DNA of 64,000 bases, taken from contig CAJXJW010000001.1 of assembly GCA_913055625.1 (NCBI GenBank), forward strand, positions 310,001-374,000, given 5' to 3'. The notes under the pieces are model-generated. The model did no database searches. It worked only from the letters and a program-made list of their open reading frames with translations, and was not told the origin of the DNA. Shown piece by piece: positions 43,144-45,152 of this stretch. Numbering within the stretch: the first letter of the stretch is position 1; every line of letters starts with the position of its first letter. A program made the position numbers and the translations under genes. This DNA comes from an uncultured Pseudomonadota bacterium. GTDB lineage: Bacteria > Pseudomonadota > Gammaproteobacteria > Steroidobacterales > Woeseiaceae.

Positions 43144-43271
43144 CTGGGGGCTGCCCGGCTCGGGCCGCGTGTCGTACTATTCAGGCGCCAACCGCGGTCG
43201 CTGAAGCTGATCGGGTGCCCCCGCGCTTCAGCGTCGTTCCCGTCGCTTTCTCCTGGAGAACGAGTACGCTG

Positions 43272-43592
43272 ATGAAACACGCCGGTTCCTGCCTGTGCGG
43301 AGAAGTCCGTTTCGAAGTCGACGGCGCATTCGACGTGTCCCCTAAAGGTGTCCTAAAGGTGTCATGTCCTAAAGGTGTCCTAAAGGTGTCTGTCCTAAAG
43401 GTGTCTGTCCTAAAGGTGTCAGGTTTATTTTTTCTCGACGATCCTCCGGCCCGCAAGGAAAATAGACCTGACACCTTTATCGCACTCGGGTGCCAGTCGG
43501 ACAGTCTGCGAACACGGTTGTGGCAGCGTTTGCTTGTGGCTGGGTTCCGCCGCCTGATCGGTTGGAGCTACACTGTCTGTATCCTGACCTGA
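43272..43592 (+). pseudogene. GFA-family gene truncated by repeat array
   Basis: The first 21 codons (MKHAGSCLCGEVRFEVDGAFD) are the N-terminus of a GFA-domain (glutathione-dependent formaldehyde-activating enzyme-like) protein, with the zinc-binding CLC motif. At about base 43338 the sequence passes into the TAAAGGTGTC array, and the remaining GFA domain is missing. The frame stays open through the array, which reads as a repeated VLKVS peptide, and stops at 43592. The chimera of 106 residues is very unlikely to be functional. Confidence 0.75.
43343..43479. repeat. Repeat element A: six tandem TAAAGGTGTC units plus an inverted copy
   Basis: Forward units start at 43343, 43354, 43370, 43381, 43396 and 43411, separated by short C or TGTCC spacers. 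The last continues into AGGTTTATTTTTTC. After a GC-rich loop of about 25 bases the inverted end GAAAATAGACCTGACACCTTTA (43458-43479, one mismatch in the arm) closes a hairpin of about 20 pairs. The element interrupts a GFA gene. The tip sequence looks like the palindromes carried by REP-associated tyrosine transposases, but no transposase is present. Confidence 0.85.
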
Positions 43593-43618
43593 TGCAGACT
43601 CAGTGGCAAAAAAGGGGG

Positions 43619-44152
43619 TCAGCGAATGATCTGGGTGAGAAGCTGGTATAGCTCGCCGAGAAGACCGATCCCCGCAATGAGGATACCGAGTGTACCGATC
43701 GCTCGTCCTGTGACGAAACGGCTCGCAAAATCCGAACCGCCGACAACCAGGAAATACATCGACAATCCAAGGACCAACAAGGCTATCGTCATGATGATTC
43801 CGGAGATGATGTAGCTCATGAGAAGCGCAATCAGCCAGCCCGTTTCAAGTCCACGGTCAATTAGCTGATAGATCAACTTCGCGGCGTAGACCGCGGTCAG
43901 GACGAAATAGCCACTCCAAAGTACGCGCGAAAGCAAGAGGCCAAGCGATCGCTCCATCATCGACTCGCTGCTGGGCCGGTCCGACCGCAGGTCTCGCATG
44001 GGGGCAGATAACCGCTCGATCTGCCGGGTAAGGTACGCCGCTATTCTTGGGAACCTGACTTCAATTAGTGCCAACGTCAACCCGACCAGTTCGAGGGGAA
44101 ACGTTACATACTGCAAACCAGCGGCAACTGTCTCGTTGAATAAAGTCTCCAT
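43619..44152 (-). CDS. Small multi-span membrane protein, unknown, in repeat island
   Basis: 177 residues. Four hydrophobic segments: about 12-30, 75-95, 105-130 and 145-172. No signal peptide and no recognised motif; the N-terminal half has a charged linker (RQIERLSAPMRDLRSDRP). It lies between repeat elements A and B and its base composition is visibly less GC-rich than the genes on either side, which suggests recent acquisition. Its promoter would have to lie at or near element B. General features recall small integral membrane proteins of the YqhA kind, but I would not assign it. Confidence 0.7.
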   Translation of the reverse strand: METLFNETVAAGLQYVTFPLELVGLTLALIEVRFPRIAAYLTRQIERLSAPMRDLRSDRPSSESMMERSLGLLLSRVLWSGYFVLTAVYAAKLIYQLIDRGLETGWLIALLMSYIISGIIMTIALLVLGLSMYFLVVGGSDFASRFVTGRAIGTLGILIAGIGLLGELYQLLTQIIR

Positions 44153-44207
44153 GGCTTCTTTTTACAGCAAACAACCGTCGTTCGTGCGAGCCAGAGGTGT
44201 CCGACCC

Positions 44208-44441
44208 AAAGGTGTCAAGCTAAAGGTGTAGCTAAAGGTGTCTAAAGGTGTCAGGTTTATTTTCTATTAGCTAAAGGTGTCAGGTTTATTTTCTATTCGT
44301 GCACACAATTCAGTCGACCGGGAATCGTTGTCAGGTCTATCGTGTCTACGGGGAATTCTCTGCCACATCAATGCCTTATAGATCGCCGAGGAAAAAATAA
44401 ACCTGACACCTTTAAAAGACACCTTTAGAGAAACACCTTTA
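44208..44441. repeat. Repeat element B: inverted arrays around a 110-bp core
   Basis: Left arm: AAAGGTGTC at 44208, TAAAGGTGTA at 44221, exact TAAAGGTGTC at 44233, 44243 and 44272; the last two run into AGGTTTATTTTCTATT, which is therefore present twice, 29 bases apart. Right arm: AATAAACCTGACACCTTTA (44396-44414), a second inverted unit at 44418-44427 and a decayed one at 44434-44441. The arms face each other across a unique core containing a partial GTCAGGTCTAT (44330). The array reaches to three bases before a possible start of the next gene. Confidence 0.85.
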
Positions 44442-44512
44442 GAATGGGACACTCTTTGGGGCGGGATCTGCGCACGGCCCCGAGCCGTCCAGGTATTGCT
44501 GGAGTTTCCAGG

Positions 44513-44872
44513 TTGCCTCGAAGCAAACTGCTGATCATTGTTTTCGTAGCGAGCTTTGCGCTCAGCGGACTCATCGAGAGTGTTCTGAGTGCTGAAGTCG
44601 CTGAATCCGTATTCCTGATCCACGGTATTGCCCTGGCAGTGATCTGCTTTGCTTGGTGCAAGGCGGACACTGCGGAGCGAAACATCCCTGCGCCGGTAGG
44701 GTCTGCGCTCCTTTGCGGTGTGCTGCCGGTCGTTGGGGTGCCAGCGCACTTACTGCGCACCCGCGAGTGGCGCAAGGCATTGATCGCCATTGTGAAGGCC
44801 TTCGGAGTGCTCGTCATGTCGATTCTTGCGTATGTCCTCACGCTGTACGCGGGCGAGTTTGTATCGGTGTAG
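44513..44872 (+). CDS. Small membrane protein, unknown, in repeat island
   Basis: 119 residues from a TTG at 44513, which has GGAG eight bases upstream and starts directly with a short basic stretch and a span (LLIIVFVASFALSGLIES). An in-frame ATG at 44444 would add 23 residues but lies at the edge of repeat element B with no ribosome binding site. Three or four hydrophobic segments are seen, including VFLIHGIALAVICFAWC and a last one ending VLTLYAG. No family recognised. It sits between repeats B and C, and its 5' boundary may have been set by the repeat. Confidence 0.6.
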   Translation: MPRSKLLIIVFVASFALSGLIESVLSAEVAESVFLIHGIALAVICFAWCKADTAERNIPAPVGSALLCGVLPVVGVPAHLLRTREWRKALIAIVKAFGVLVMSILAYVLTLYAGEFVSV

Positions 44873-44886
44873 TCCACTAATGACAC

Positions 44887-44923
44887 TAAAGGTGTCCACT
44901 AAAGGTGTCAGGTTTATTTTTTT
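44887..44923 (+). repeat. Repeat element C: two forward units, no inverted partner
   Basis: TAAAGGTGTC at 44887-44896 and 44900-44909, the second running into AGGTTTATTTTTTT. No inverted arm is seen in the 230 bases that follow, so it is a half element. It begins 14 bases after the stop of the small membrane-protein gene and could form part of its 3' end. Confidence 0.8.
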
Positions 44924-45152
44924 CCTGGAAAACAGCCGCGAACCGTAGCGTGGGACTATGAGCGATTCAGAGCGAAACTAAGGAAAACGCACAGGCGTTC
45001 AAGGAATAGAAATACGATGTTCCAGCCCGGTTGTTGGCGGCCGCTCGGCACTGGCCGATAGAGGTCGGCACGCAATCGGTTTCACCGAAATTTGACATTG
45101 CGGTCGTGTGTAAACGAGGCTTCCGCTGGTTCTTGATGCCGGAAGCTTCGAC

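Follow-up and report, generated by a model that had tools for sequence, protein, structure and literature searches.

Ends of a TIRtron-like transposon family carrying tandem arrays of tip and local host flank in an uncultured bacterium

The window analysed here, a stretch of 64,000 nucleotides from an uncultured Pseudomonadota bacterium, contains three clusters of a short repeat, and the question it raises is what kind of element these repeats belong to and how the short unit came to be multiplied. A preliminary description, made from the letters of the window, had read them as a REP-like miniature element associated with Y1 transposases, with a tip that multiplies by slippage or repeated insertion. 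It is well supported that the clusters are ends of a small, mostly non-autonomous transposon family linked to the sole Y1 transposase of the genome. At these ends the tip has undergone tandem duplication along with 3-10 bp of local host flank, and this has happened independently at many loci and in many phyla.

Repeat clusters in the window

The window contains 11 exact forward copies of the 10-bp unit TAAAGGTGTC (at 43343, 43354, 43370, 43381, 43396, 43411, 44233, 44243, 44272, 44887, and 44900) and three exact inverted copies (at 43470, 44405, and 44418), which confirms the counts first reported. Three more units carry one mismatch. With one mismatch allowed, 0.85 units are expected in the window by chance, and the maximum over 100 shuffles was 5. 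The units fall into three clusters:

Cluster A, about 43343-43479: inverted pair.
43344..43420, plus strand: left end of cluster A, six AAAGGTGTC tips.
43421..43431, plus strand: left tail of cluster A, AGGTTTATTTT.
43459..43478, minus strand: right, inverted end of cluster A, one tip and the tail AGGTCTATTTT; hairpin pairing with the left end.
Cluster B, 44193-44441: inverted pair.
44193..44292, plus strand: left end of cluster B, six tips and two tails.
44394..44440, minus strand: right end of cluster B, three tips, the outermost decayed (AAAGGTGTT); hairpin pairing with the left end.
Cluster C, 44884..44920, plus strand: solo end, CACTAAAGGTGTC twice and one tail.

As proposed in the preliminary description, clusters A and B fold into long hairpins (z = -5.1 and -5.2, respectively), and cluster C is a half element with no inverted arm. 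At the left end of cluster A, the spacers between tips read, in order, ct, atgtcct, ct, tgtcct, and tgtcct, and the outer flank is ...gacgtgtcccct. The left end of cluster B carries decayed outer tips (AGAGGTGTC, then AAAGGTGTC behind a mutated flank base, then AAAGGTGTA), and its final 29 bp are a tandem copy, tail included. In cluster C, the two CACTAAAGGTGTC copies form an exact tandem duplication of 13 bp in which the host flank CACT is contained. The whole window holds six exact tandem duplications of period 10-25 bp, and none of them lies outside clusters A, B, and C.

The DNA around the clusters has several features of its own. Positions 43331-44925 have a G+C content of 52.7%, against 65.7% for the whole window, a composition compatible with imported or non-coding DNA. 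A GFA-like gene (43271-43341; weak Pfam match, E = 0.0085) is interrupted after its first ~23 codons at the tip array of cluster A, and no remainder of it turned up next to the clusters. A gene for a 177-aa protein with no Pfam match lies between clusters A and B (43619-44171). Its homolog in another genome (G443, L078), 83% identical, occupies an unrelated locus without these repeats and ends at nearly the same bases, so that the gene seems to be a module that has moved.

The repeated unit

Genome-wide, the constant part of the repeat is the 9-bp sequence AAAGGTGTC; the leading T of the 10-bp unit originally described is host DNA. The bases preceding the tips are alike within a locus and different between loci, the local flank being ct in the window, taa at L032, caaa at L035, ggcgtt at L041, gaa at L039, and cgaaa/caaa at L045. 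The spacers in the window had been characterized as a regular series of TGTCC, C, or GC, and are in fact ct, atgtcct, tgtcct, gct, t, cact, and others, mostly copies of the bases adjacent to the array.

We expressed this pattern as a rule, in which the spacer at the outermost tip consists of zero to a few bases of tip continuation followed by the end of the local flank, matched exactly. The rule was obeyed by 16 of 24 arrays in this genome and broken in the other 8, while shuffling flanks between loci gave a mean of 3.1; this own-genome figure is the weaker one, as A-rich flanks raise chance matches. Among arrays from other genomes, 23 of 30 obeyed it (shuffled mean 2.3). The unit is therefore flank plus tip, produced by local tandem duplication or an equivalent event. 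Its length is irregular, at 10-20 bp.

The breakpoints were located in 91 pooled arrays, all of them arrays in which the first spacer obeys the rule. The right breakpoint falls after GTC or GAC in 50 of the 91 and one base later in 31. The left breakpoint lies 3-10 bp outside the tip without clear sequence preference, a range whose upper limit comes partly from the search pattern and whose lower limit comes from the filter; no C|N rule was found there. Complementarity between flank and tail, considered as a target rule in this genome, received no support (1.46 versus 1.43 in shuffled sequence).

The genome-wide family and its transposase

The longer sequence AAAGGTGTCAGGTTTATTTT occurs in the 3.63 Mb genome 35 times exactly and 55 times with up to two mismatches, with none for the reversed control. 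The shorter TAAAGGTGTC has only 21 copies, fewer than AAAGGTGTCAGGTTTATTTT, because its T is host flank at the window locus. Copies are single, paired, or grouped; many form hairpins with mostly unrelated loops, and others are solo ends. When mapped relative to genes, as the preliminary description had suggested, they proved to be mostly intergenic. About half of the ends in the regions examined from this genome (29/62) have two or more tips.

The repeat is not unique to the window and a transposase is present, contrary to the refuting condition set in the preliminary description. The genome encodes one Y1_Tnp protein:

G000:C8:1374-2063, minus strand: Y1_Tnp transposase gene (TIRYT-type HUH/Y1), 230 aa.

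This sole Y1 gene lies between inverted copies of the family end, and the right end there has a duplicated tip, ...CCTGACACCTTTTTTGACACCTTTTTTGATACTACGG. The protein has the motifs NHVH, WEGR, and YVDLNP and is 38-41% identical to two TIRYTs with YIELN. Its catalytic residues are present, and cleavage of single-stranded DNA via a 5'-phosphotyrosine is predicted. The C-terminus is conserved among these three proteins, with no Pfam HTH detected in any of them at E up to 5. A sequence search for a solved structure found none. The ends of the family read AAAGGTGTC-AGGTTTATTTT, and the TIRYT-type transposase that acts on them is probably the product of this one gene, which lies outside the window.

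Beside two of the ends (L036 and L037) we observed a repeated segment, 88-94% identical between copies (L036 1606-1969; G000:C2:1-364; G000:C4:12114-12515), which is perhaps another mobile element.

Comparison with known elements

The text of Di Nocera et al. (2013, PMC3733652) describes TIRtrons as RAYT-like genes (TIRYTs) enclosed by terminal inverted repeats, of which several contain GGGGWSAS, and their dispersed, moderately abundant copies occur as singles, pairs, and groups. The present family resembles them in its RAYT-like gene between inverted repeats and its moderately abundant dispersed copies. Its GG(G/T)GWCAG-like motif may correspond to theirs, although it reads GGTGTCAG rather than GGGGWSAS and GGTGTCAG departs from GGGGTCAG at position 3. 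It differs in its tandem tip arrays with host flank, which are absent from the text of PMC3733652.

In the text of Quentin et al. (2018, PMC6006769), most TIRYTs fall in TnpA_REP subclass 2.1, or RAYT group 1, which has NHVH, W[EQ], and YIELNP-type motifs, a median length of 238 aa, and a C-terminal HTH (DnaA_C-like). The same text reports the subclass in about 15% of surveyed strains, with no REP-like sequence beside its genes, and leaves its role open. The transposase described here shares NHVH, WE, and Y-x-x-LNP and is similar in length (230 aa), whereas the C-terminal HTH described there is undetected here by Pfam.

GTAG-type REPs, REPINs, and BIMEs, as presented in the texts of PMC3116915, PMC2817692, and PMC8266576, likewise have a Y1 gene flanked by its own repeats and form inverted pairs. 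The conserved end sequence of our family has no GTAG beside the tip, and a single end has neither a stable hairpin nor a short stem-loop. A GTAG REP or REPtron identity is accordingly not supported. Thus, the REP-like reading of the preliminary description holds in part: the family is dispersed, mostly non-autonomous, and linked to a RAYT-like Y1 gene, but its members are not strict REPs, having no GTAG-tagged palindrome. Judged from its sequence features, the family should be labelled a TIRtron (TIRYT, TnpA_REP subclass 2.1) in place of a GTAG REP.

P. fluorescens SBW25 is known to have tandem REPIN clusters that take in flanking DNA; according to the text of PMC3116915, the tandem unit there is a whole REPIN and the scale far larger, while the unit here is 10-20 bp. 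We found no literature on these repeat sequences among the matches listed, and no description of a duplicated tip with host flank in the main texts of the related literature. In their architecture the arrays appear to be a new version of an element type already known.

Distribution in other genomes

The AAAGGTGTCAGGTTTATTTT-type end was matched in 9 of the 60 relatives searched, and one further genome, of the same genus (G225), contains many arrays of the same end. A survey of 369 genomes of the class gave hits to a two-tip pattern (AAAGGKGWC, 1-10 bases, AAAGGKGWCAGR) in 22, spread over 20 genera, and none to the reversed control. Arrays from G307 and G110, two of the genomes surveyed, match exactly those of Methylotuvimicrobium buryatense and of an Ectothiorhodospiraceae MAG, from which the surveyed class is probably Gammaproteobacteria. 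A cultured environmental strain, M. buryatense 5G (L108/L163), is among the carriers of such arrays. Close relatives of the end in other genomes read GGGGTCAG/GGGGACAG and have the same array structure.

Among the matches listed from named genomes, most arrays show the same exact flank duplication, and the phyla listed include Planctomycetota, Verrucomicrobiota, Omnitrophota, Desulfobacterota, Actinomycetota, Bacillota, and others. The minority of listed arrays without flank duplication are probably decayed arrays or chance hits. This recurrence across loci and phyla makes the observation more general than the window alone showed.

Y1_Tnp is present in 21 of the 22 array genomes and in 220 of the 347 others (Fisher p = 0.001), a coarse association, as Y1_Tnp also covers other IS200-like genes. 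The exception, G128 (78% complete), had no detectable Y1_Tnp gene. In two other genomes, arrays directly adjoin TIRYT genes.

Searches with the flanks across the genus for empty sites found the upstream genes conserved and the intergenic DNA too diverged for junctions to be read. Plasmid relatives of Paraburkholderia, Rhodospirillum, Pseudomonas, Pseudoalteromonas, and Iodobacter yielded no allelic array pairs. The phage collection and the E. coli genomes gave no match, and matches in viral contigs were mostly one conserved sequence that does not follow the flank rule.

A 24 kb P. aeruginosa record (NZ_CP116719.1, L266) has TIRYT genes and at least 12 of their ends scattered between short cassettes that carry annotations such as nuclease and deaminase; the tip is duplicated at only two ends there.

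Proposed mechanism and alternatives

We favor a reading in which these are TIRtron ends whose flank-plus-tip arrays arise by transposase cutting followed by local repair or strand transfer, with a probability of roughly 55%; the family is observed, and it is the chemistry that we infer. Within the tip, the transposase would cut at GTC^A or next to it, and a second break, or a polymerase stop, would occur in the adjacent flank. Fill-in or strand transfer to the sister strand could then leave [flank+tip][flank+tip]-tail. Repeated rounds would enlarge the array beside the intact inner tip while the outer tips decay. Outer tips are indeed more decayed than inner ones (11 versus 1, p = 0.006), although some decayed outer tips may be chance matches; such a bias would follow if the next event depends on an intact inner tip, adjacent to the tail, and on no other tip.

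We know of no biochemistry for TnpA_REP subclass 2.1. For the TnpA_REP enzymes that have been studied, the text of PMC8266576 gives cuts at C|T, and for one enzyme also at C|A, near their repeats, and by analogy a cut at GTC^A would be plausible. Two ordinary TnpA_REP cuts would be insufficient, since a third of the right breakpoints lie one base past GTC^A and the left breakpoint follows no C|N rule.

More tentatively, and at somewhat less than even odds, TIRYTs in general may carry out local terminal duplication, copying the tip and 3-10 bp of host flank without homology, so that a phylum-spanning scar would record the cleavage point and build hypervariable arrays. The scar, seen independently at many loci and in many phyla, yields a specific biochemical prediction: cleavage of GGNGWC^AG at C^A or beside it. 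The scar would also serve as a marker of activity as well as of the probable cleavage point, and the arrays, if variable between strains, as natural short variable-number repeats for typing.

Replication slippage, in which a hairpin or short repeats stall the polymerase and 12-19 bp are recopied with the transposase uninvolved, is an unlikely source of the arrays. It would draw on the strong hairpins of clusters A and B, and it could operate once two copies exist, which fits the runs of identical spacers at L074 and L045. However, junction microhomology at first duplications averages 0.81 nt, about the chance level (about 0.67 at random joining), and outside these ends no exact tandem duplication with a period of 10-25 bp occurs in the window. 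Moreover, solo ends without a hairpin partner hold arrays of 2-5 tips, and a partner is therefore not needed. The near-absence of microhomology, the arrays on solo ends, and the decay of outer tips together argue against slippage and hairpin stalling, and the slippage route of the preliminary description is accordingly disfavored.

The other route suggested there, repeated insertion, is less probable still. Tips or whole ends would insert repeatedly into one target, each time duplicating a short stretch of it, and recombination would remove everything else. For a single event, flank-plus-tip duplication and tip insertion with a duplicated flank are sequence-identical, and inverted pairs often have similar flanks. 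Nevertheless, either a mobile piece of only 9 bp would be needed or everything else would have to be lost precisely every time. The longer units with tail and inner flank (L032, L035, and window 44242-44299) are plain tandem copies, and direct target duplications around inverted pairs are weak (0.57 versus 0.23). Simple repeated insertion is not needed, as every repeat unit carries the flanking bases of its own locus.

Least probable is that extra tips were selected as binding sites (iterons) titrating the transposase or regulating neighboring genes, which would suit the frequency of multiple-tip ends (29/62) and the mostly intergenic location of the copies but not the decay of outer tips, the irregular unit length, by which helical phasing is not kept, or the lack of conservation in copy number.

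Flanks of inverted pairs

Across 46 inverted pairs, the two outer flanks tend to mirror each other in inverted orientation, with a common suffix of 2.52 versus 0.70 in shuffled pairs, a likeness that comes partly from subfamily flanks (e.g. ATC), A-rich flanks, and neighboring tips. Insertion into a palindrome or snap-back copying could account for the clear cases (L089, L102, L106, and L122). Palindromic ends were observed at L122, L102, L106, and L053 (e.g. TTGCCTACACAAAGGTGTCAGGCACCTTTGTGTAGGCAA), where the stems run on into the flanking DNA.
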